Shown: piece by piece, positions 20,015 through 32,193 of the stretch
How the letters are laid out: every line of letters starts with the position of its first letter
Position numbering within the stretch: the first letter of the stretch is position 1
Source of the DNA: Candidatus Kapaibacterium sp.
Lineage (GTDB): Bacteria > Bacteroidota > Ignavibacteria > Kapaibacteriales > UBA4661
Direction: 5' to 3'
DNA length: 32,394 nucleotides
Assembly (NCBI GenBank): GCA_004292595.1
Contig: RDXM01000123.1
Span: 1-32,394, forward strand
Position numbers and translations under genes: made by a program
The notes under the pieces: model-generated
Databases searched by the model: none
Told to the model about the DNA's origin: nothing
The model's input: the letters and a program-made list of their open reading frames with translations, nothing else

Positions 20015-22492
20015 ATGTTTGCAAATTACCTCAAACTCGCTTTTCGTGCGCTCTGGCGACGTAAATTTACCACCGGACTCAACGTACTCGGTCTCGCGCT
20101 TGGCATGACGGCATTTTTATTCTTGATGGAATTTGCCAGCTTTCATGCGGGGTTTGATGCTTTTCACCCAAACGCAAACCGCCTTTTCCGCTTCGTTGGC
20201 ACATCGCGCATGGGAGGGATTGGCAATGTGTCGCCCGCTATGCTTGCTCTGCGCGACCGTTTCCCCAGCATTGAAGCTATTCCGACGTTTATGACCAGCG
20301 CGGGTGGTGTGGTGCAATACAAACCACAAAGTGCTGTCGAAGGCGCACAAACACTCGCTTTCCAAGAAGGCGATGTGGCGTACGGCAATAACGATATTTT
20401 CCGCGCATTTTCATTCCCTTTTCTTGCGGGCAGTCCCGACCTTGATAAGCCAAATACGATGGTAATAACAGCCTCCGCAGCGCAGAAATACTTCGCTTGC
20501 AACGGAAATTACCAAAGCGCGATTGGAAAACGCTTGCTTGTGGCGAATCAATTTACCCCCAACGAGTTCACCGTTACAGGCGTGATGCAGGATATTCCTG
20601 AAAATTCTCACTTGAAGGGAAATATGCTCTTTTCGCTCCAAACCCTTGCCAATCCTGCAAACTTGAATAATAACAGTTGGGCAAGTTTAGACCCGCAGAA
20701 TACATCAGGCTTTTTGACGGCATATATTTTGCTGAAGGAAGGCGCGAAAGCCGCAGAAATGGAAGCGCAGATGGCAGAACTGAGCAAAAAAATGGGTGAT
20801 TTGGATGTTACTTGGCACTTGCAGCCAATTCGCTCCATTCACACAGGCGATGGCTTCAACGACCCACTTCCAAATGCCGCAGCACTCAAACACGTGGTTA
20901 TTGCTAGTTCCATCGCTTTTTTTGTTCTTGCTTTGGCGTGGATAAATTACATCAATCTTTCGACAGCATTTGGACTCTCCAGAGCGCGTGAAATTGGGGT
21001 TCGTAAGGCGATTGGCGCGTCACGTCAGCACCTTGTTTTGCCGTATTTGTTGGAATGCGCTCTGCTGACTTTCGCCGCACTTCTCATCGCGCTCACAGCT
21101 GTTGAACTGCTCCAAAAGCCGCTTAATACCTTGCTTGGCGCGAAATTGAATCTTGGTTATGCACTTTCGTTTGGCATTGGTTCGTGGGGAATTGTAGCAT
21201 TGGTGCTGGGTGCAATGCTGTCGGGCGGCTACGTCGCGCTTGTTTTGACGGGTGTGGACCCGATTGTAGTTCTGCGCGGCAATTTTGCACGCTCGGCGCG
21301 TGGCGGTCGGATTCGCTCAACGCTTGTCGTGGTGCAGTTTGCGGTCTCGATTGTGTTTATTGCAGGAACAGTGATTGTTTGGCAACAGTTAAACTTTATG
21401 CGCGGACGTGATTTGGGCATGAACTTGGAACAGCTTCTCGTGATTGACGGACCGCAAATTGTGGAAAAAACATCCGATGGTAAAAAGGATATGCGACCAG
21501 CACTGGTCTTCAAGCAAGAATTGGCGCGGTTGCCGTTTGTACAAAAAGTTGCTGGCAGCCAGAATATTCCGGGCGAAGGCTATAACTTCTCCACCGAAGG
21601 AATCACCAGCACTGCGGGGCAAAAAGGCGACGAGAAAAAACGCTACAATATGCTGATTGCCGATGAAAACTACTTCGCAACCTACGAAATGAAGTTTGTG
21701 AGCGGCAAAGGCTATCAAAACACCGATAATAATGGAGATTTTAAGCTGCGAAATGTTGTTGTGAATGAGTCGGCGATGCAGCAACTTGGCTTCAGAACAG
21801 CGTCGGAGGCGGTTGGGCAATGTATCCAATGGGGCGATGATACAAAAGGGCAGCGTATTCAAATTTGTGGTGTGGTCAAAAATTACCATCACAAGTCGCT
21901 TCATGGCGCGATTGAGCCAATTATTTTTTGTCCAAGCGACGCAACGAGTTGCTTCACACTTCGTATGACGACCAACAACGTGCAAGCAAACATGGCAACG
22001 CTGGAGCAGCTTTACAAGCGCATTCTGCCTGGAAACCCCTTCATTGCTCGCTTTGCAGACGAGATTTTCCAAAAGCAATACGAAGATGATAGTCGCGGCG
22101 GGAATTTATTCGCAATTTTTAGCTCCATCGCCATCGTGATTGCTTGCTTGGGACTCTTTGGTTTGGCAGCGTTTGCGGCGGAATCTCGCACGAAAGAAAT
22201 TGGTGTGCGCAAGGTTTTGGGCGCGTCGGAAGCAAGTATTGTTGCGCTTCTGAGCAAAGACTTCTTGAAACTCGTTGCTATCGCGTTTGTGATTGGTGCG
22301 CCGCTTGCTTTTTGGCTTATGAGCGTGTGGCTGCAAGATTTCGCCTACCACGTCGAACTCCGCTCTGGCTTTGGTGTTGCGGTGTTAGCGATTGCGGGAA
22401 TTGTGTCGGCGGGCGTAGCATTTATGACGGTTGCAGGGCAGGCATGGAAGGCGGCGCGGGCAAATGCGGTGAAATCGCTCAGGCATGAGTAG
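20015..22492 (+). CDS. ABC transporter permease, MacB/FtsX type
   Basis: This inner-membrane permease of 825 residues belongs to the large FtsX-domain class common in Bacteroidota. It has a duplicated layout. TM1 (about 18-42, FTTGLNVLGLALGMTAFLFL) is followed by a periplasmic MacB core-like domain (about 45-285) and an FtsX bundle (about 290-410, with SRAREIGVRKAIGASRQHLV). A fresh TM (about 428-448) is followed by a second periplasmic domain (about 450-690) and a second FtsX bundle (about 705-815, with SRTKEIGVRKVLGASEASIV). The paired EIGVRKxxGAS loops are where such permeases contact their ATPase. The start has an AAGGA ribosome site. A sigma-54-like promoter upstream links it with the adaptor (17901) and ATPase (3934). 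It ends 17 bp from the convergent Uma2 gene. The exported substrate is unknown. Confidence 0.92.
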   Translation: MFANYLKLAFRALWRRKFTTGLNVLGLALGMTAFLFLMEFASFHAGFDAFHPNANRLFRFVGTSRMGGIGNVSPAMLALRDRFPSIEAIPTFMTSAGGVVQYKPQSAVEGAQTLAFQEGDVAYGNNDIFRAFSFPFLAGSPDLDKPNTMVITASAAQKYFACNGNYQSAIGKRLLVANQFTPNEFTVTGVMQDIPENSHLKGNMLFSLQTLANPANLNNNSWASLDPQNTSGFLTAYILLKEGAKAAEMEAQMAELSKKMGDLDVTWHLQPIRSIHTGDGFNDPLPNAAALKHVVIASSIAFFVLALAWINYINLSTAFGLSRAREIGVRKAIGASRQHLVLPYLLECALLTFAALLIALTAVELLQKPLNTLLGAKLNLGYALSFGIGSWGIVALVLGAMLSGGYVALVLTGVDPIVVLRGNFARSARGGRIRSTLVVVQFAVSIVFIAGTVIVWQQLNFMRGRDLGMNLEQLLVIDGPQIVEKTSDGKKDMRPALVFKQELARLPFVQKVAGSQNIPGEGYNFSTEGITSTAGQKGDEKKRYNMLIADENYFATYEMKFVSGKGYQNTDNNGDFKLRNVVVNESAMQQLGFRTASEAVGQCIQWGDDTKGQRIQICGVVKNYHHKSLHGAIEPIIFCPSDATSCFTLRMTTNNVQANMATLEQLYKRILPGNPFIARFADEIFQKQYEDDSRGGNLFAIFSSIAIVIACLGLFGLAAFAAESRTKEIGVRKVLGASEASIVALLSKDFLKLVAIAFVIGAPLAFWLMSVWLQDFAYHVELRSGFGVAVLAIAGIVSAGVAFMTVAGQAWKAARANAVKSLRHE

Positions 22493-23037: not shown

Positions 23038-23721
23038 ATGATTAAGTTGAAGAATATCAAAAAGTTCTACCGTACCGAAGAGGTAGAAACTACCGCGCTG
23101 AACGGCGTTTCGTTTGAAATCCACAATGGCGAATTTGTTGCCATCATGGGACCCTCAGGCTGCGGTAAATCCACGCTTCTCAACATTTTGGGAATGCTCG
23201 ACAATCCCGACGGTGGCGAATACCATTTTTACGAACACGAAATTGCGGGCTACAATGAACGCCAACGCGCTGAACTCCGCAAGAAATCTATCGGCTTCGT
23301 GTTTCAAAGTTTCAACTTAATTGATGAACTCACCGTTTTTGAAAACGTCGAATTGCCGCTTCTCTACTTGGGTTTCGATGCCGATTATCGCAAAAAGCGC
23401 GTGGAAGAAGTTTTGGAGCAGATGCAAATGATGCACCGCCGCAACCACTTTCCGCAGCAGCTCTCCGGCGGACAGCAACAGCGCGTGGCAGTAGCGCGGG
23501 CAATCGTCGGTAAGCCGCTTGTTATCTTTGCCGATGAGCCAACGGGGAACTTGGATTCCAAAAATGGCTCGGAAGTAATGACGCTCCTCACCGAGTTGAA
23601 TAAAGCAGGTTCGACAGTGATAATGGTAACGCACACGCCAGAATTTGCCGAGTACGCAGGGCGCACGATTCATCTTTTCGATGGTCAAGTTGTAACCGAA
23701 AATATTCGGTCAATGAATTAA
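23038..23721 (+). CDS. ABC transporter ATP-binding protein (MacB/LolD type)
   Basis: This 227-residue ATPase has canonical motifs: Walker A GPSGCGKST, Q-loop FVFQSFNLIDELTV, signature LSGGQQQRVAVARA, Walker B VIFADE, D-loop GNLDS and switch His in VTHTPEFAEY. It would power one of the FtsX-type permeases nearby (20015 on the same strand or 23802, convergent). It is the close paralogue of the ATPase at 3934 and, unlike it, has the normal D-loop Asp. Upstream there is an AGGA ribosome site 8 bp before the ATG but no TTGGCAC element or TGTCCG box, so its control appears different from that of the three sigma-54-type genes. A TACGGTAC-like palindrome near 22937 is the only notable upstream feature. 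Confidence 0.93.
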   Translation: MIKLKNIKKFYRTEEVETTALNGVSFEIHNGEFVAIMGPSGCGKSTLLNILGMLDNPDGGEYHFYEHEIAGYNERQRAELRKKSIGFVFQSFNLIDELTVFENVELPLLYLGFDADYRKKRVEEVLEQMQMMHRRNHFPQQLSGGQQQRVAVARAIVGKPLVIFADEPTGNLDSKNGSEVMTLLTELNKAGSTVIMVTHTPEFAEYAGRTIHLFDGQVVTENIRSMN

Positions 23722-23801: not shown

Positions 23802-26453
23802 CTATTCCTCCCGCAACGCCAGTGCTGGCGCGATGCGCGAGCTTTTCCATGCTGGGTATAATCCCGCCAAAAATGCTGCAACAATAGATAACATCACGGC
23901 TTGAAGCAATATCTCAGGCGAGACAAAAAACTGCAAACTCCACCCAAACGAGCGTTGGTTGATGACGTAAATCAGCGTGAGCGCGAGAATGATGCCCATT
24001 GGAAGGGCGAGAATCCCTGCAAGTAAGCCGATAAGCGTGGTTTGGATAGTAGTCAAAAGCCAGACCTGGCGCGGCGTTACGCCGTTTGCCCTCAAAACCC
24101 CGATTTCACGCGCCTTCTCGAACTGCAATGCCATCAGTGCCGATAGTACGCCCACAAACGAAACGAAAATCGTGAGCAATCGCAGCACGTCGGTTATAGC
24201 AAACGTGCGGTCGAAAATTTCCAACGATGTTGCCAGCAACGCACGATTTGACCGTATGTTCAGCTCTTGACGGTCGCGTGTGAGAAGCTGCAAATCATGA
24301 ATCAAACTGTCGGGCGAAATCCCATTTTTCACGAAAATACTGATGCCAGAATTCGTGCGGTCATTCCAGAAAGTATTGTAAACACTGCGTTCCAGCACGA
24401 TGATACCAATATCCGACGCATATTCGTAGTAAATCCCGCACACCCGCACTCGCTTCAAACCCGCATCGGTACTCAGTTCTACGCTATCGCCGCACGCAAT
24501 CTTATTTTTGAAGGAAAATGCTTCTGAAATAATCGCTTCGCCGCGCCGAAACTGTTCCCACACGAGGCGTTTATCACCCACTTCTTTGAAATGAAATCGC
24601 TGTGCGGTGCTAGGGCTGAGATTGGTTGTTAAGACTTGTACAAGGCGTGTTTCCTTGTTTTGAGCGGTATTTTGTGAAAGAAATTGCCCTTGTTCGGGGA
24701 AGTGCGCTTCTGCAAGAATTGTCCGAAAACTTGTCCATTCCTTGACGTGCGGATGAGTGGTGATGCGGCTGAGAGCAATGGAATCAATAACAGCATCGCC
24801 GCGCCGCGCAATGAGACTTGGTGGAGAAATATAGATGTCGGCTGTAAGCGTGTAGGTAAGCCATTCTACAACCGTTTGCCGAAAAGAATTGACCATCACA
24901 CCCACGCCAATCGTTGCCGAAACAGCGACCATGAGCGAAGCAATCGCAATGCCCGTCCGCGAGAGCGACGTTGCAATGCCACGCACCGCCATACTGCCGA
25001 TAAAACCTGATGTTTGGCGAAGTATTGGTTGGAAAAGCCGCACAAACGCAAGCGTTACAATGGGAACAAGCAAAGCAAAGCCGCAAATCACGGGAAGCAA
25101 TCCCGCATACCCCGCATAAATACTTGCGCTTGGGTACATGAGCCACGCCACACCTACGCCGATTGACAGCGCACCCAGTCCCGCATACAGCCAGACACGA
25201 GCAACGATGCGCTGCTCTGCTTGTGAGCGATTCAACACAAGGCGTGGCGGCGTTTGTGTGGCTTCGCGGGCGGGGAGCAGTGCTGCGCCAATTACCCCAA
25301 ACGTGCCAAGCAGTGCGCCTTTCAGCAAAACGAGCGGCGAAATCTCCAAACCGCTCACCTGCACCGTGAAGTACAAATCGTTGATAGTCTGCGCAATGAG
25401 CCGCACGAAGCCGTTTCCAAGAATGATACCAAGCGCGAGACCGAGAATGGTGCCAATCAGCCCAATCACCAACGCCTCGCCCAGAATCAGCACAAATACT
25501 TGCTTCTGCGTTGTTCCGATAAGCCGCAGCATTCCGATATATTGCCGACGTTGCACAACGGAAAAGGTCATTGCATTGAAAATAATGAACAGCCCCACGA
25601 TGAGCGCGAGAAGACTGAGCGCGGTGAGGTTCAGGTCGAAAGCTCTCGCCATATCTGCGATGCGCTTGGGACGAGCCTGTGAGCGCGTAACTTCACAGCC
25701 ATTTGGCAGAAATGCTTGCAAACCAGCAATCGTGCGCTCTTCAACTTCTGGAGTGTTTTGCAAAATAAGGTCAATCCGCGAAAGTTTTCCCTGCATTTCC
25801 AAGAGTTCTTGTGCGGTGGAAATGTCGCACACAAGAAGGCTGGAAAGCGCACGTTTGCTTGCTTCGTCGCTTGGCGTGATTGTGCCTACGAGGAGCGCGA
25901 AATAGGTTTTTCCGCCGCGCTGTATTTGCAGCGTATCGCCAATGCGCAAGCCTAGTTCTGATGCGGTTTGTGAGGAAAGTACGCACGCATTTTTCTGGGT
26001 GAAAAACGGTGCGAGGTCGAAATTGCGGGCATTGCTGTTGGTGTTGAGAAATGTGCGGAAATCGCGCTCGGCAAAAATATCAATGCCAAAAACCTTAAAA
26101 ACCTGTTCTTGTGCGGTGTTTGGGGAATTTAATTGCACATTTTTCTTCACAAGAACGACGTTTCCCTCAACAACTGGCGCAGCGCGAAACGAAGGAATAG
26201 ATGTGGGAGGCGGGGAAGTCTTCAAAGCCGCATAAATGCTATCGGCAAAGCCAGTCGTGCTTCCCACGATGTGATGCGTCGCTTTTCCGCTCACGCCGTT
26301 GGACGATTGCTCGAAAGCCGCACGTGCGCTGGTGTTTGCGAGGTCGATAGCGATGACGATTGCCACGCCAAGTGCCACGCCAAGCACGGACAATGCTAAC
26401 TGCCACGGATGCCGAAGAAAATACCGAAACGAAGAGCGAAAGAGAGTATTCAT
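23802..26453 (-). CDS. ABC transporter permease with two FtsX domains
   Basis: This inner-membrane permease of 883 residues is larger than, and different from, the one at 20015. TM1 (about 18-38, LALSVLGVALGVAIVIAIDL) is followed by a periplasmic domain (about 40-265). A first FtsX bundle follows (about 270-400, with RRQYIGMLRLIGTTQKQVFV), then several further TMs (about 415-510) and a second periplasmic segment (about 540-745). A final FtsX bundle closes it (about 750-880, with KAREIGVLRANGVTPRQVWL). The layout resembles LolE/YbbP-like or DevC-like permeases that extract or export lipids or lipoproteins; the substrate is unknown. The ATG at 26453 was chosen because relatives begin just before TM1; an in-frame start at 26561 adds 36 unrelated residues. 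The convergent ATPase at 23038 is a possible partner. Its upstream flank contains a REPIN-like repeat. Confidence 0.88.
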   Translation of the reverse strand: MNTLFRSSFRYFLRHPWQLALSVLGVALGVAIVIAIDLANTSARAAFEQSSNGVSGKATHHIVGSTTGFADSIYAALKTSPPPTSIPSFRAAPVVEGNVVLVKKNVQLNSPNTAQEQVFKVFGIDIFAERDFRTFLNTNSNARNFDLAPFFTQKNACVLSSQTASELGLRIGDTLQIQRGGKTYFALLVGTITPSDEASKRALSSLLVCDISTAQELLEMQGKLSRIDLILQNTPEVEERTIAGLQAFLPNGCEVTRSQARPKRIADMARAFDLNLTALSLLALIVGLFIIFNAMTFSVVQRRQYIGMLRLIGTTQKQVFVLILGEALVIGLIGTILGLALGIILGNGFVRLIAQTINDLYFTVQVSGLEISPLVLLKGALLGTFGVIGAALLPAREATQTPPRLVLNRSQAEQRIVARVWLYAGLGALSIGVGVAWLMYPSASIYAGYAGLLPVICGFALLVPIVTLAFVRLFQPILRQTSGFIGSMAVRGIATSLSRTGIAIASLMVAVSATIGVGVMVNSFRQTVVEWLTYTLTADIYISPPSLIARRGDAVIDSIALSRITTHPHVKEWTSFRTILAEAHFPEQGQFLSQNTAQNKETRLVQVLTTNLSPSTAQRFHFKEVGDKRLVWEQFRRGEAIISEAFSFKNKIACGDSVELSTDAGLKRVRVCGIYYEYASDIGIIVLERSVYNTFWNDRTNSGISIFVKNGISPDSLIHDLQLLTRDRQELNIRSNRALLATSLEIFDRTFAITDVLRLLTIFVSFVGVLSALMALQFEKAREIGVLRANGVTPRQVWLLTTIQTTLIGLLAGILALPMGIILALTLIYVINQRSFGWSLQFFVSPEILLQAVMLSIVAAFLAGLYPAWKSSRIAPALALREE

Positions 26454-26561
26454 GCGGTGTGTAGGGAAGAAAAATACGTTTTTATTTGTCAAATCGCTGG
26501 CGAATGCGCATTTTAGAGCCTGATTGTTTTTCGTCTCTGTCCACGACAACACTTCTTTCAT

Positions 26562-26638
26562 AGTGGCACAGACATTCCTGTCTGTGAGTGGTAGCGAGGA
26601 AGTCAGGTAAGAACACAGACAGGAATATCTGTGCCACT
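26562..26638. repeat. REPIN-like inverted repeat, copy 1
   Basis: Two 25-base arms, 26562-26586 (starting AGTGGCACAGACATTCC) and 26614-26638, are inverted with one mismatch around a 27-base spacer. The arms match those of copy 2 (29435-29512) apart from a few positions. This is the layout of paired REP sequences mobilised in trans by RAYT transposases; no such gene is in the window. Confidence 0.85.
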
Positions 26639-26737: not shown

Positions 26738-27274
26738 ATGATTACACTTGTTGAAGGTATTATTGCGCTGAGTGTTATTCTCGGCATTGCAGGATATGTT
26801 GGTACAAAGTTCAGCTTTCCTGCGCTTTCTGAGCCACAGGGTTTGCTGGGCGATATGGAAGAGCATTACCTCACCTATCTCGACAAGCAAAAAGCTCTCT
26901 TTCTCTTGGAGCAGGAAAAACTTGAAAAATTGCAGCAAAACGAAAGCACACAAATGCAGGAACAAAGCGCACTTCCACAAAGCTCTGCGCAAATCAATGC
27001 AATCATTGATGATATTTTAGTCATCTTGAAGCCAGAAATAGACGGGCTTGCAGGGAAAATCAATGCAGGAACGTTCACTGCGGGCAAAGCGGTAGAAAAA
27101 CTCCGTGTTTTTCGCCATCTAGCGCCCATTGCTGAAGCCTTTGTGGAACGTCGCAAAGCTACTGGCGCACACCTTTCCGAGCGCGATGAAGAAAAACTCA
27201 TCACTGCCGTAAAAGACGCACTTCGTGCTGATGTACAAGAACGCATCATCAACTGGAAGCTCGGTGAAATGTAG
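26738..27274 (+). CDS. Unknown small membrane-anchored coiled-coil protein
   Basis: I do not recognise this 178-residue protein. One N-terminal TM helix (about 4-24, VEGIIALSVILGIAGYVGTK) is followed by a charged, Gln/Glu/Lys-rich helical stretch (about 42-80, likely coiled coil). The helical C-terminal domain (about 90-178) includes DGLAGKINAGTFTAGKAVEKL. There is no signal cleavage site, so it is probably anchored with the bulk in the cytoplasm. The ATG at 26738 is preferred to the TTG two codons earlier. It precedes the four-TM gene at 27840 on the same strand, separated by 565 bp. Composition and codon use look like those of its neighbours. Confidence 0.65.
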   Translation: MITLVEGIIALSVILGIAGYVGTKFSFPALSEPQGLLGDMEEHYLTYLDKQKALFLLEQEKLEKLQQNESTQMQEQSALPQSSAQINAIIDDILVILKPEIDGLAGKINAGTFTAGKAVEKLRVFRHLAPIAEAFVERRKATGAHLSERDEEKLITAVKDALRADVQERIINWKLGEM

Positions 27275-27839
27275 TGCGTATATTTTTGTCATTCCTCTAA
27301 TTTTTTATCGTCGCTTGTTGAGTTTGTCAAGTTTACCTGACACTTATGCTTGACACTTCCGTACAAAACGTGCTGTTTTTTTGTGCAGTTTACATCACAG
27401 AATGAAAAGTAATGCTTGAAAGCCGCATGGAATCTTGCTTTGGAGAGTGAAAAAATTCTTGGCATGACTTTTGGTCATATTGTTGGCATAACTAACTTGG
27501 TTCACACTTTTGAACTATCCAAATGCCACAGTTTCGACCCGTTGTTCTGTCCACACGAATTATCATCGTTTTGCTTGGTTTGCTGGCTATTGGTGCGATT
27601 GAAGCAGTTTTGTGAAAATGAAACTGAACATTGAAAATGCCTCGCCCAAATAGCATTCATGCGCGATTTGACCGTCCACCATCCGTTTGATGCCGATATT
27701 TGCTGTATTTGAGAGATGCACTGCAGAACATCCTCCCAATTATCCTTCCCTGAACACCGCTTCACGCCTAGCATGAGCCTCGTGTGGATGAGAACAACGC
27801 CAACACACGATTTTTCAGACCTTTTCTAAAGGTGGCTTC
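27275..27839. other. 565-bp intergenic region with degraded or small coding traces
   Basis: There is no convincing full gene. The left part has the related words CCTGACACTTATG and CTTGACACTTCC (27336-27360). A 30-residue frame with a hydrophobic helix lies at 27523-27615. The right part contains scattered short open stretches. An AAAGGTGG ribosome site (27828-27835) belongs to the gene at 27840. Confidence 0.4.
27523..27615 (+). CDS. Possible 30-residue single-TM peptide
   Basis: The ATG at 27523 opens a frame that begins MPQFRPVVLSTR and continues into a hydrophobic helix, IIIVLLGLLAIGAIEAVL, before a TGA. The positive-inside layout (Arg residues before the helix) is plausible for a small membrane peptide. 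No clear ribosome site precedes it. It could equally be the surviving N-terminus of a lost gene. Confidence 0.25.
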   Translation: MPQFRPVVLSTRIIIVLLGLLAIGAIEAVL

Positions 27840-29252
27840 ATGTCTTCCGTTCAATCAATACTCAACTCCTCTGAAGAGCGCACACCACCTCGTTTCCAAG
27901 CAAACGACGAGGAAGTAATTGCCAATGGCAATACCAATTCTTTCGCTCATCAAACCGCCTTTCCTTGCTCTGCACACGAGACGCAGAGCCGCATCCACGC
28001 CGCTTTGGTTCAGCAAGAACCAGAAAAGCAACCGTCGCTTTTTCTTCCTTTTTTTGTGCTTGTTTTGTCTGTAAACCTGATGTTTACTGGCTTGTACAAA
28101 TTTGTTGCGCCAGAATTGGTTGAAAAATTTGCCCGCAATAATTTGAAACCTGCCGAACTTCAGCTCGTGAATTTTCAAGGCGTTTTTGCCAATCCAAATG
28201 CTGCTGGATTGCAGCAGATAGGCGCGTCGCCAGAGATTTCCCGCGCCCTCACAAGCGGCGAGCTTGTGTTCGATTTCACTGAGGAATCCCGCACATTCGA
28301 GAAACACGGCTATACCAAATCCGCGCAGGAGTGGTACATCAAAACCCCGACGCTTGGCGAAGAAGCAATTTTGCTCACGCCCGCAATCGCGCTTGGTTTG
28401 GGGCTTGGAGCGTTTTCTTTTGCGTGTATGTTTTTGCTCAGTGCCGCCTTGCCAAGTAAAATTGGCTTGTTATCTGCGCTTACAGACCGCGCCATCCATC
28501 AAACCCGCTTCACGCTTGCCATGCAGACTGGTTTATCCGAAGAAGACCTTGATGTAATGCGCCTCAGCGATGCAGAACTTTTACTGCTTGCAAAAAGCGA
28601 ATCAAACCGCATAGAATCCAGCTTTGAACGGCTTTGGAACGTTGTTGCGGGTGGAAAAATGTCGGAAAGCGATGTGAGAAAATTTCACCCAAAAATGCTC
28701 CAGCCCAGTTCTTACGCGCTCTTTCGGGCATATTGCCTTCAGCGCATGGCAGAAGTGCTTTCGCCCGCAATCGCGCTCCGAATGCAGCATTTACGCGAGG
28801 TTGCGGCATGGTCGCGTCAGAAAGTACGCTTGTATGCGGCGTGGCGGTTTTTTATGCAAGAATATTTTGTGCCACGCTTTGCAAATGTGGTCAGCGGCAT
28901 GGCGTACTGCGGCGCAGCGTTCTTGATTGTCTCGGTCGGCTTGCGTGGACTCCGCTTTATTCCTGCCTCGCGCCCAAGTATTCTTCTTGCAACCATTTCG
29001 CTTGAGTGCGCATTTCTCCTACTTTTGGGAATGACGCTCGCCTTCCAGCACGAGGAAACAAGCGGTATTGAGTCCTTGAAGCGCATCGAACACGGCATGA
29101 ACGATGTTGCTCGTCTCGTGCAAGGCGTGAATCCAAGCGTGATTGAGCGGACGATAGAACTTGCCGTGCAAGAACACGCGAAATCACCAGAGATGCAAGA
29201 GCGAATGAGTAAAGATTTTACGAATAAACTTGTTGCCGCACTGCAAGGGTAA
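27840..29252 (+). CDS. Unknown four-TM membrane protein with MotA/TolQ-like topology
   Basis: I do not recognise the family of this 470-residue protein. Four TM helices are visible: about 68-90, 174-203, 347-368 and 380-402. The N-terminal 67 residues are polar. About 83 residues lie between TM1 and TM2, about 143 charged helical residues between TM2 and TM3, then a tight turn between TM3 and TM4 and a 68-residue charged tail. With the N-terminus inside, this puts the big loop and tail in the cytoplasm, as in MotA, TolQ and ExbB stator proteins, although the large TM1-TM2 loop is unlike them. TM4 carries a buried Glu (E389 in ISLECAFLLLLG). A strong ribosome site (AAAGGTGG) precedes the ATG. 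The next gene on the same strand encodes a single-TM periplasmic protein, which is the usual partner type. A motor or energy-transducing role is inference only. Confidence 0.7.
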   Translation: MSSVQSILNSSEERTPPRFQANDEEVIANGNTNSFAHQTAFPCSAHETQSRIHAALVQQEPEKQPSLFLPFFVLVLSVNLMFTGLYKFVAPELVEKFARNNLKPAELQLVNFQGVFANPNAAGLQQIGASPEISRALTSGELVFDFTEESRTFEKHGYTKSAQEWYIKTPTLGEEAILLTPAIALGLGLGAFSFACMFLLSAALPSKIGLLSALTDRAIHQTRFTLAMQTGLSEEDLDVMRLSDAELLLLAKSESNRIESSFERLWNVVAGGKMSESDVRKFHPKMLQPSSYALFRAYCLQRMAEVLSPAIALRMQHLREVAAWSRQKVRLYAAWRFFMQEYFVPRFANVVSGMAYCGAAFLIVSVGLRGLRFIPASRPSILLATISLECAFLLLLGMTLAFQHEETSGIESLKRIEHGMNDVARLVQGVNPSVIERTIELAVQEHAKSPEMQERMSKDFTNKLVAALQG

Positions 29253-29353
29253 AGCAGCGCAAAAGCTCGTCAATACACGGGTTTGGGGAGTGCCTTTGTC
29301 GAATCATCCTTCCTCGTAGTTTCTCATTTGATTGCACAATTATTCTAGCAGAA

Positions 29354-29382
29354 TCGCTCGAAAAGCGCGTCTTTTCGAGCGA
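29354..29382. terminator. Strong hairpin after the four-TM gene
   Basis: TCGCTCGAAAAG pairs perfectly with CTTTTCGAGCGA around the loop CGCGT. There is no T-run, so factor-independent termination is uncertain. It lies 100 bp past the stop codon. Confidence 0.5.
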
Positions 29383-29434
29383 ATGGGAATACTTTGCTTA
29401 AGGATTGAACAAAAAACTAGTGGAAAAAGTCAAT

Positions 29435-29512
29435 AGTGGCATAGACATTCTTGTCTGTGTTTGTCGCCTGAAACTCGCACTAACACTCACAGACAAGAAT
29501 GTCTGTGCCACT
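29435..29512. repeat. REPIN-like inverted repeat, copy 2
   Basis: Arms at 29435-29459 and 29488-29512 are 25 bases each and inverted with one mismatch around a 28-base spacer. The arm core AGACATTCTTGTCTGTG is itself nearly palindromic. It matches copy 1 at 26562-26638; the spacers differ. Confidence 0.85.
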
Positions 29513-29603
29513 GTGAAAAAAGTTTTGTCCTTTACAAAGTAATTGACGACAAAATCAGCCATTACAAAACAACACAAATTACTCACTTCAAATTTTTACC
29601 GTT

Positions 29604-31832
29604 ATGTCTAAAGGCTCGGCAGGAAAGGTCTATTTCGTCTTGTATCTCGCAGTAATACTGGAGTTGCTCATCATCATTGTTGAGCGCGACGAGGCGGAAG
29701 ACCACTTACGCAAGCGGGAGCGTGAAGCCCGCGAAATAATTCAAGACATTTTAGGACAAATGCAGGTCGGACCAGGAAATGAAAACCTCACCTCGCGCAT
29801 CAACGATGAAATCTCGCTTGTGAGCGATGAAGCGGTGAAGATTTCAGGCATTCCGTACAAAAAATATCGCTTTTACAACATTGAAGTTGGCGTGAATGAT
29901 GGCTCATCGGCACTTATGGCGGCAAATGGCGCAGATACCGCACAAACTCTCGCATTGCTGAAGCATCTCACGAATGCCGAACATTTGCGCTACGAGATTT
30001 TATTTTTGCAAAACGACGCAACCGACGTGCCAGCGCAAGATGCCGCTTGGCGCAGCGTTGGAGCAATGGAACTTGTGCTGGATACCGCATCAACGCTTGC
30101 GTGGAAAGCACCCGCGTATAAAGCGGAGAATGAAGCTGCTTGCAAAACATATTCCGCAAATACGGCTGGCGCGGTCTTTTCGTATAATGCGGTAGAAACC
30201 GATAAATTGGCGGAAGAGAAGGGCGGACGCTATCTGAAGCGCATTTTTACCACCAATTTTCAGCCAACGCAAGCAGGCTGGTACAAACTGCGCTACACCT
30301 CGCGCACGAACCGCATCATGGGCGTAGGAGGCGACGCAGCCAGTTTTGATGAGGTTTCTGACGAATCGAAAGTAAACATTGGTGCAATGCAACTGACGGT
30401 GAAAAAATTGCGCAAAGTGCAGAAAATGCTGGAACGCGAGCTGGAAAGTTACAACGTACCACAGATGAACACGCTGATTGCTGCAAAAAACGAAGAAGAA
30501 GCGGCGAAGTTTTTCGCGCTCTTGGATAGCGCGAAGTCAGCATTAAAGCGGGAGAGAAGCGGAGAGAGCGATGGAGCGTTGGTGCAAGATATTGTGCGAA
30601 AAATTGATGTTTATGGTGATATGGCAAAGCTGCTCGCGCCGAATAAATCACGGTATTTTGCGCAAAATTCTGGTGCGATGGAAATCAACATCCGTGTAAC
30701 GAAGCCGCCCGTAGCCATTGTGAAAGCAAATGTAGCGTTGCCACAAAACGTATATTTGTTCGACAAACTCACGCCGAAATTCACCTTTACGGCTGGACCA
30801 TTTTACGGCAATAATTTTCCCAAAGGCGAAATCGTTGATGCAAATGGAGCAAGTACGCCGCTTGTGATTGAACGCGCCACAGAAACTCGACCAATGCTTG
30901 CGAGTGCGGAAAAAACAAACGCTGACGTGAAAATGGTCAAAGCCTTGAACGCAAGCAGTGACGCGGGCAATACTCTTGATAAAGGCAAAGCGGTAGAATT
31001 TACAGCAAAAGCGGTGCAGGTTTTGAAGGCGGGAAGCTACACCGTGCGCATAAAACATAGCTCGCAGGGCGATGAAACGGTGCAAGAAACGAAGTTGAGT
31101 ATTTTCCCAAGCCAGCTAACAGCGCAAAATCGGAGAAGTCTTGAAGGGCGCATGAAATCTATGTTTTACGGTGGAACGCTTTCGGTGAATTTAGAGCCAG
31201 ATTGCGCGGGAGCCGTTCCGCCAAGCGAGTTTCGGACATTTATTGGCTTGAGTACAGGTCTGCCGACGCTAACGCCGTCGGTTGGTTTGCAAGCAAAGCA
31301 GCCCTTGGAAGCAAAGGCAAAGCTCGTAGCGGTACGGTGTACGTGGACTTCTCCTTTCACGGGCGAGGAAGTAGAAATTTTGCCCAAGCTCGAACAGCCC
31401 ATCAAACAACGTGAACCAGACATTGACCTGACAAAAGCCGCCGTTACTGGCGTTGAGGGCGAATGGCGGGAATTGAAAATTGCGGTTGGTGGATTGCAAC
31501 TGAGCGCAGGTGTGATTGATGTTGGCTCAAAATACGGAACGCCCGAAAACCTTGATAACATCAGCCTTGTGAACGCTCGTTTGGAAAATGCGCAAGATGT
31601 TGAGTTGATAGATTCGCAACTGAAAGAGCAGGGAAATGGCTTGTACTCTGCGGTCTTCACCGTGCGAAGTTTATTGCTGAAACAGCCCAAAGAAATGACG
31701 GGCGCGATAACCTTTGGCATAAACGCAGCCATGCGCAATCCCGTGAACGGAACAAGGTCTGGTGCGGTTTCCATGGAAACGAGCGTACCGTTTATGTACG
31801 CACCGCCGCCGATAAAAGGCAAGAAAAAATAG
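29604..31832 (+). CDS. Unknown large single-TM periplasmic protein, GldM-like layout
   Basis: This 742-residue protein has one N-terminal TM (about 8-27, GKVYFVLYLAVILELLIIIV) with a buried Glu20 and no cleavage site. A charged helical segment (about 28-75) follows. Then come several beta-rich modules: about 85-250, a helical break of about 265-350, and Ig-like repeats of about 365-500 and 510-735 (for example KPPVAIVKANVALPQNVYLF and GSYTVRIKHSS). It ends PPPIKGKKK. The plan of one TM plus stacked periplasmic beta domains resembles GldM/PorM of the type IX secretion motor, but I see no decisive family motif and no GldK, GldL or GldN beside it. With the four-TM protein upstream it could form a two-part inner-membrane complex. 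No Shine-Dalgarno is visible. A hairpin terminator follows. Confidence 0.7.
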   Translation: MSKGSAGKVYFVLYLAVILELLIIIVERDEAEDHLRKREREAREIIQDILGQMQVGPGNENLTSRINDEISLVSDEAVKISGIPYKKYRFYNIEVGVNDGSSALMAANGADTAQTLALLKHLTNAEHLRYEILFLQNDATDVPAQDAAWRSVGAMELVLDTASTLAWKAPAYKAENEAACKTYSANTAGAVFSYNAVETDKLAEEKGGRYLKRIFTTNFQPTQAGWYKLRYTSRTNRIMGVGGDAASFDEVSDESKVNIGAMQLTVKKLRKVQKMLERELESYNVPQMNTLIAAKNEEEAAKFFALLDSAKSALKRERSGESDGALVQDIVRKIDVYGDMAKLLAPNKSRYFAQNSGAMEINIRVTKPPVAIVKANVALPQNVYLFDKLTPKFTFTAGPFYGNNFPKGEIVDANGASTPLVIERATETRPMLASAEKTNADVKMVKALNASSDAGNTLDKGKAVEFTAKAVQVLKAGSYTVRIKHSSQGDETVQETKLSIFPSQLTAQNRRSLEGRMKSMFYGGTLSVNLEPDCAGAVPPSEFRTFIGLSTGLPTLTPSVGLQAKQPLEAKAKLVAVRCTWTSPFTGEEVEILPKLEQPIKQREPDIDLTKAAVTGVEGEWRELKIAVGGLQLSAGVIDVGSKYGTPENLDNISLVNARLENAQDVELIDSQLKEQGNGLYSAVFTVRSLLLKQPKEMTGAITFGINAAMRNPVNGTRSGAVSMETSVPFMYAPPPIKGKKK

Positions 31833-31857: not shown

Positions 31858-31898
31858 AAAAAATGCCAGCGAAATATGCTTTTCGCTGGCATTTTTTT
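31858..31898. terminator. Bidirectional intrinsic terminator
   Basis: AAATGCCAGCGAAA pairs with TTTCGCTGGCATTT, with an A-run on the left and a T-run on the right. It serves both the plus-strand gene ending at 31832 and the minus-strand gene ending at 31897. A smaller hairpin (GCATTTT / AAAATGC) precedes it. Confidence 0.9.
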
Positions 31899-32193
31899 AT
31901 TTGCTGACCAAGCCATTTATCTTTACAGCTAGCGCGAAATCTAGCTCCGTGAGACCACCTTTGTCGTGGGTTGCAATGCTAATTTTCACTTTATTCCATG
32001 AGAAAATAAGCATATCGGGATGATGGTCTGCCACTTCGGCGCAGATAGCAACGGCGTTCAGAAAGCCCATTGCGGCAAGAAAATTGGGAAATTCAAAGAT
32101 GCGTGTAATCATATTGCCGCTTCGTTGCCAATCGGGGATGGTGGCAAGAAAACTCGGCAGATTTTCTTCGCTAATACGTTCACGCTTTGCCAT
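31897..32193 (-). CDS. Pterin-4a-carbinolamine dehydratase
   Basis: This 98-residue cytoplasmic enzyme dehydrates 4a-hydroxytetrahydropterin, recycling the pterin cofactor of aromatic amino-acid hydroxylases. In bacteria it may also serve molybdopterin-related or regulatory roles. The active-site signature is complete: EVADHHPDMLIFSWNKV followed by ISIATHDKGGLTELDFALA, with the His-His pair, the second His and the Asp in expected places. Its length matches the family (about 95-110). The ATG at 32193 has an AAAGGA ribosome site eight bases upstream. No phenylalanine hydroxylase is in the window. It shares a bidirectional terminator with the convergent gene. Confidence 0.95.
   Translation of the reverse strand: MAKRERISEENLPSFLATIPDWQRSGNMITRIFEFPNFLAAMGFLNAVAICAEVADHHPDMLIFSWNKVKISIATHDKGGLTELDFALAVKINGLVSK

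Follow-up and report, generated by a model that had tools for sequence, protein, structure and literature searches.

What kind of machine is encoded by three membrane-protein genes that lie in a row on one contig of Candidatus Kapaibacterium sp. (Ignavibacteria, Kapaibacteriales), and what work might it do for the cell? The stretch of DNA analysed, here called the window, is the 32,394 nucleotides of contig RDXM01000123.1 of assembly GCA_004292595.1, which is contig C97 in a 4.6-Mb genome (G000) of 199 contigs. A preliminary description of the window had taken these genes for an undescribed three-gene set built like the stators of proton-driven motors. We found instead that the second and third genes, called L and M below, form a two-gene pair that is real and conserved, that it is most likely a motor of a known kind from a family not described in the literature searched, and that powering type IX secretion is its most likely job. 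Our reading, to which we give a probability of about 0.62, is that L–M is the equivalent of the GldL/GldM (GldLM) proton motor of type IX secretion, and that the window holds a second copy of it without the partner genes N1 and N2 that follow the pair elsewhere.

All three open reading frames (ORFs) stand on the + strand as first described (Table 1), and hydropathy agrees with the topologies proposed then, giving one transmembrane (TM) segment in the small first protein, four in L and one in M, with residue 389 of L and residue 20 of M both Glu and both within TM segments. The statement that no recognised family covers them holds for Pfam and NCBIfam: Pfam gave no match for L at E<=1 and chance matches only for the small gene and M (M's two, neither of them OmpA), and NCBIfam had no family for any of the three. 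The genes are separated by 565 bases (first gene to L) and 351 bases (L to M). Compared with the nearest named relative ('Ignavibacteria bacterium isolate bin62...', L116), the ratio of nonsynonymous to synonymous substitution rates (dN/dS) was 0.086 for the small gene, 0.110 for L and 0.047 for M, values that are all low, so all three look like working genes under purifying selection.

The conserved unit is the pair and not the set of three. Our comparison set comprised 61 genomes, namely the window's own and 60 relatives of its order, those with names being Candidatus Kapaibacterium or Ignavibacteria metagenome-assembled genomes. L matched in all 61 (in G057 at E 5.8e-4 only, in a frame of 269 amino acids, aa) and M in 60, against 8 for the small first gene. 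L and M are adjacent, with L first, in 7 of the 10 genomes of the window's family (G000, G001, G002, G005, G006, G007 and G009); a further member, G008 (70% complete), carries two other L–M neighbour sets on the short contigs C305 and C324, and G003 and G004 gave no L or M match of window-type strength. Only the window and the near-identical G005 have the first gene next to the pair; it shares the pair's contig in G007 and G009 at distances of about 30 and 43 kb, and is on a contig other than the pair's in G001, G002 and G006, so the proposed three-gene set is not supported, and this gene is probably just a neighbour outside the system. Given its presence in all 7 genomes with a window-type pair, it may have a looser functional tie to L–M; it also occurs in G003, where the pair is absent. 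The expectation that the genes would be conserved together was thus borne out for L and M, which are joined in those 7 genomes and in the operons of sister families and turn up in one identical set of 20 out of 148 genomes (both below), and failed for the first gene.

The TM segments of L fall by hydropathy at about residues 67–85, 182–200, 350–368 and 381–399, with loops of 91 residues between TM1 and TM2 and of 146 residues between TM2 and TM3, and a helical C-terminal tail. Sequence comparison indicates that the core of L is the TM3–TM4 hairpin and that this order has added TM1–TM2 and the large cytoplasmic part to it, because the hairpin is what L shares with the short L proteins of sister families: profile–profile alignment with hhalign matched the window-family L to the sister L hairpin at probability 99 (E 5e-18). 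E389 is invariant in alignments A3 (7/7) and A5 (12/12), as is R369 in A5 (12/12), and a TM4 Glu was present in all 38 distinct hairpins found by their TM3 motif; because G and R are built into the pattern that picked them, they bear on the Glu, which was read by eye, and not on the Arg. AlphaFold2 modelled L from 7 sequences with a mean pLDDT of 58.9, too poor for a fold search, and sequence searches of solved structures returned nothing for L.

M has its TM segment at residues 9–27 by hydropathy, with E20 inside, and both E20 and the adjoining E27-R28-D29 are invariant in alignment A2, whose 60 rows are the window M and the M of 59 of the 79 loci introduced below (the other 20 were omitted as truncated, interrupted, near-duplicate or unmatched to the start pattern). 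The N-termini of window-family and sister M proteins were joined by hhalign at probability 97 (E 3.5e-11), and in eight sister M proteins the ERD motif is again invariant, with the position of E20 occupied by E in five and by Q, S or N in one each. Of the two membrane acids that the preliminary description had singled out, that of L is therefore conserved throughout, and that of M is not supported as indispensable. Because the Glu stands in 38 of 38 hairpins while E20 varies in sister proteins, we favour E389 as the likely proton carrier, by analogy with E49 of GldL, which passages of PMC8986121 describe as strictly conserved and required for secretion, with GldM E31 not required. The AlphaFold2 model of M (60 rows, mean pLDDT 83.7, pTM 0.51) places a long helix at residues 5–54 ahead of a mixed alpha/beta part, a helical part at 266–344 and three immunoglobulin (Ig)-like domains.

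A scan of named genomes with the M alignment, covering the best 80 of 120 relatives, yielded 79 loci, labelled mostly Candidatus Kapaibacterium, Kapabacteria, Ignavibacteria and Bacteroidetes/Bacteroidota, and a few other labels (Chloroherpeton, Desulfobulbaceae) may be misnamed bins. Among these loci, the genes that come after M include N1 in 70, N2 in 65 and one for a VWA-OmpA protein in 62. The six window-type loci have L upstream and neither N1 nor N2 in their flanks, one of them on a 3.3-kb and one on a 16-kb contig. The window's own genome has both kinds, since an operon-type M with N1 and N2 lies on C173, and C76 and C136 carry another L and a short protein of L type, respectively. A tree of 62 M proteins, made with a quick method without bootstrap and with long branches flagged, gathers the seven window-type sequences in one clade (SH-aLRT 100) and places the six operon-type sequences of the window's family in another (SH-aLRT 100), away from the first. 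The window M thus seems not to stem from recent copying of the C173 M. The L tree is weakly resolved, with one row (L029) wrongly framed, and was used for two groupings alone: the three B2 proteins cluster, and the C76 copy of the own genome is placed among the B1 proteins. In L051, L052, L066 and L068, the sampled genomes of the order mostly had three L-type proteins (about 450, 330 and 270 aa) and usually one M.

Other families of the same class have the pair in a more compact operon. We found six such loci, with an L of 160–355 aa and an M of 186–222 aa, and in four of them L–M is followed by a protein of ~365 aa, N1 and N2. G112 carries L-M-N1-N2 twice, with M proteins 446 and 428 aa long; upstream of one of these operons, at a distance of two ORFs, is a 612-aa protein (L248, 11480–13318) whose C-terminus looks by eye like a type IX sorting domain. 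The window's own genome further holds, on C144 (L055, 6679–9030 and 9162–10892), two proteins in which C-terminal parts of M (49% and 40% identity) are fused to N1 (56% and 39%), one of them also joined to N2 (32% identity), both exported by the look of their N-termini; these fusions suggest, at the level of sequence, that the C-terminal part of M, N1 and N2 work together. More relatives of the M C-terminus are found in this genome on C56 and C8. The N2 proteins of the order (L049, L053, L064) have three recurring cysteines in their N-terminal half, as seen by eye, which may be comparable to the use of a GldK cysteine that, in passages of PMC12635249, holds outer-membrane partners.

The nearest known plan is that of GldL/GldM (PorL/PorM). 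In L as in GldL, a hairpin of two TMs bears a conserved Glu in the second of them and has a GAA motif followed by a basic residue; M, like GldM, is a single-TM partner, with Ig-like periplasmic domains in its predicted structure; the ring gene precedes the axle gene in window-type loci and sister operons as it does for GldLM; and the genomes encode SprA and cargo with sorting domains. The two differ in that this order's L adds two TMs and two large loops to the hairpin, that GldM measures 509–525 aa in 20 proteins whereas full-length M measures about 716–820 aa in the order, 186–222 aa in the six sister loci and 428–446 aa in G112, and that the genes following L–M are N1 and N2, with no GldN match. 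L does not reach the cut-off of the NCBIfam GldL family (TIGR03513), nor M that of GldM (TIGR03517), and neither family, nor GldN (TIGR03523), was found over cut-off in any of the 12 genomes of the order sampled. The other proton-driven pairs, MotA/MotB, TolQ/TolR and ExbB/ExbD, likewise have a one-TM partner with an acid in its TM, and L as a whole is MotA-like in topology, MotA having a four-TM plan with a long loop between TM2 and TM3; L contains no MotA, TolQ or ExbB domain (0 Pfam families at E<=1), and M differs from MotB in that no OmpA-like peptidoglycan-binding domain is among its Pfam matches and its TM acid is not universal.

These likenesses raise the question of whether L and M are true but extremely diverged orthologues of GldL and GldM that overly narrow profiles miss, an explanation compatible with our reading and one on which we are evenly divided. 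Sister operons keep the order L-M-N, the GAA motif, basic residue and Glu of the hairpin recur as in GldL sequences, and hhalign sets Glu on Glu. In family f28 (G164, G082; L245, L246) we detected a diverged gldL-gldM-gldN-like operon below the curated cut-offs, with the L-M-N order and SprA present, whose pair links to GldL at probability 96 and to GldM at probability 75, which shows that GldLM diverges that far. We tried this operon as a bridge and rejected it, as it joins canonical GldLM and not L–M (probability 0.9 and 0.1), unlike the window family, which has no such link to GldLM; the match of M to GldM has a probability of 1.3, and the predicted domain order of M is unlike the GldM stalk. 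The likeness is suggestive at the level of sequence; we leave homology open and do not file the pair as a member of GldL/GldM.

The evidence for type IX secretion comes from the company that L and M keep. SprA was detected in 60 of the 61 genomes and in none of 14 controls (in the own genome on C51, E 5e-38, in a frame of 2738 aa), and the type A sorting domain TIGR04183 in 31 of 31 relatives, with 85 matches in the own genome and matches in 2 of 14 controls, one over cut-off. A sample of 148 genomes of the phylum was then searched for SprA, GldL, GldM, GldN, M (with two alignments) and L. SprA was present in 117, and GldM, GldL and GldN over cut-off in 36, 36 and 35; the M family appeared in 20 with each alignment and the L family in 20 at E<=1e-3, eight more genomes with best L matches at E 0.019–0.063 being treated as chance. 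The 20 M genomes are the same as the 20 L genomes, all 20 have SprA, and no canonical GldL, GldM or GldN passed its cut-off in any of them. They are related to each other and are not 20 independent events, and the families that vary do so in L and M together: in f12, 4 genomes have both and 9 have neither, and f17 has 1 of each. With SprA and sorting domains present in these genomes and canonical GldL, GldM and GldN all short of their cut-offs, the pair most likely serves to power type IX secretion. By hand count, 62 sampled genomes have SprA and neither canonical GldM over cut-off nor L–M, three of them with weak GldM matches, and G062 has GldM without a SprA match. Type IX systems are defined and detected with profiles that include GldL, GldM and GldN, as passages of PMC4793230 set out, and PMC8857248, the one paper to name both Kapabacteria and type IX secretion, has passages that do not treat the motor. 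Our literature search on type IX secretion, SprA, gliding and GldL/GldM in Kapabacteria/Kapaibacteria, Ignavibacteria, Chlorobi and Rhodothermota, made in open-licence papers judged by listings, the opening of abstracts and passages, returned no description of the pair.

Several observations weigh against the assignment to a GldLM-type motor of type IX secretion. Profile–profile alignment of the families to GldL or GldM gave no significant match (probability 1.4 or less); for L against GldL, E ranged from 0.02 to 0.3 at a probability of about 2 or less, and the best alignment of the L hairpin, which sets Glu on Glu, is weak (E 0.023), at a score level that shuffling matched in 11, 5 and 1 of 150 trials when the blocks measured 8, 12 and 72 columns. 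N1 and N2, considered as candidates for GldN, were rejected when the profile match proved to lie only in the signal-peptide region. Structure searches with the M model (Foldseek and VIA) found no informative relative, the matches listed being generic Ig chains with no GldM or PorM among them, an absence that settles nothing, and sequence searches of solved structures gave only chance NADH peroxidase matches for M. L lies away from M in most of the order. SprA was not found in the flanks of any of the 79 loci, and G053 is the one linked case: there the SprA gene (PF14349, E 8e-47) stops 985 bases short of M, both on one strand, and a 207-aa ORF on the opposite strand lies between them. The window pair itself has neither N1 nor N2 beside it and is linked to type IX secretion through kinship only. 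Lastly, SprA can do without the pair: of 24 members of the class sampled from outside the order, 16 carry SprA while matching neither L nor M at E<=1e-3.

The last two points, together with the window-type pair's occurrence in 7 of 10 genomes of one family and the separate clade of its M, would also fit a proton-driven envelope motor with another task, such as gliding, adhesin movement or Tol/Ton-like work at the outer membrane, for the window copy especially. We consider this unlikely: the M family is order-wide and accompanied by SprA, the 20 L–M genomes of the sample all have SprA and show no canonical GldL, GldM or GldN over cut-off, and it is simpler to suppose one translocon with two motors than a separate machine. 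It is more improbable still that the pair is not a motor at all, with L a membrane scaffold, M an envelope-spanning Ig protein and the conserved acids structural. Such a role would suit Ig-like domains that are generic among the fold matches listed, and a channel or motor activity of L–M is a prediction; against it stand the invariant Glu in a TM of L, the coupled presence of L and a one-TM partner and the GldL-like hairpin with its basic residue. The stator-like architecture first proposed is supported for L–M, as a probable ring-and-axle pair whose purpose is most likely type IX secretion.

If L–M is a GldLM-equivalent motor, we infer that the two proteins would form a complex around a 5:2 ring in which L subunits assemble in the membrane through their TM3–TM4 hairpins and the TM helix of an M dimer sits inside. 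Proton flow through E389, with R369, at the interface of ring and axle would turn or bend the M dimer, and the periplasmic part of M, with its mixed alpha/beta, helical and Ig-like portions, would pass the force to the outer-membrane partners N1/N2 and on to the SprA translocon. Transfer of force through GldK/GldN is the current model in the parts of PMC12635249 and PMC11205867 that deal with it. The window copy would be a second motor, because its M falls in another clade than the genome's operon-type M and lies without N1/N2 as neighbours, and it would probably use the shared N1/N2/SprA set or act on a subset of cargo.

Table 1. Genes and features of the L–M locus, in window coordinates.
Feature	Position	Strand	Basis
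Small TM/coiled-coil protein, 178 aa, judged outside the system	26738-27274	+	ORF list; hydropathy (1 TM region)
L, 470-aa four-TM protein, putative ring-type (GldL-like) subunit	27840..29252	+	ORF list, hydropathy, homologue matches
L TM3–TM4 hairpin, residues 350-399, common to short sister-family L proteins	28887..29036	+	hhalign, alignment A5
Codon of R369, end of L TM3, invariant basic residue	28944..28946	+	Alignment A5
Codon of E389, L TM4, candidate protonatable residue	29004..29006	+	Invariant in alignments A3 and A5
M, 742-aa single-TM periplasmic protein, putative axle-type (GldM-like) subunit	29604..31832	+	ORF list, homologue matches, AlphaFold2 model
M transmembrane helix with E20, then E27-R28-D29	29628..29690	+	Alignment A2
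Three Ig-like beta domains of M, model residues about 356-732	30669..31799	+	Secondary structure of model

The surroundings of the locus consist of ordinary neighbours, with MacB/FtsX-type permeases and an ABC ATPase upstream (20015–22492, 23038–23721 and 23802–26561) and a pterin-4a-carbinolamine dehydratase downstream (31897–32193), and an Rfam scan of the window returned nothing at the gathering threshold. A paired palindromic repeat occurs in two copies, before the first gene (26568–26632) and between L and M (29441–29506), its unit being ACAGACAAGAATGTCTGT and an inverted partner about 48 bases off. The repeat gave 4 matches against 0.03 expected, and exact copies were present in 11 of 250 loci, from the own genome and its near relative; it looks like a dispersed element of the repetitive extragenic palindromic (REP) or miniature inverted-repeat transposable element (MITE) type.

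By hand count, canonical GldM over cut-off accompanies SprA in 35 of the 117 sampled genomes and is missing from 82, and for 20 of those 82 L–M is a concrete candidate for the motor. A bolder version of our reading, which we consider doubtful, is that L–M is a proton-driven ring-and-axle motor family that arose independently of GldLM and works for type IX secretion in a large branch of the phylum. Its ring subunit would be a bare two-TM hairpin in sister families and a four-TM MotA-like protein in this order, showing how the two plans interconvert, and genomes like the window's would have a dual-stator secretion system, with two such motors on one SprA translocon. Should our main reading be right, a single family would already span GldL-like and MotA-like topologies, and bacteria such as this Candidatus Kapaibacterium would run two motors for one translocon.

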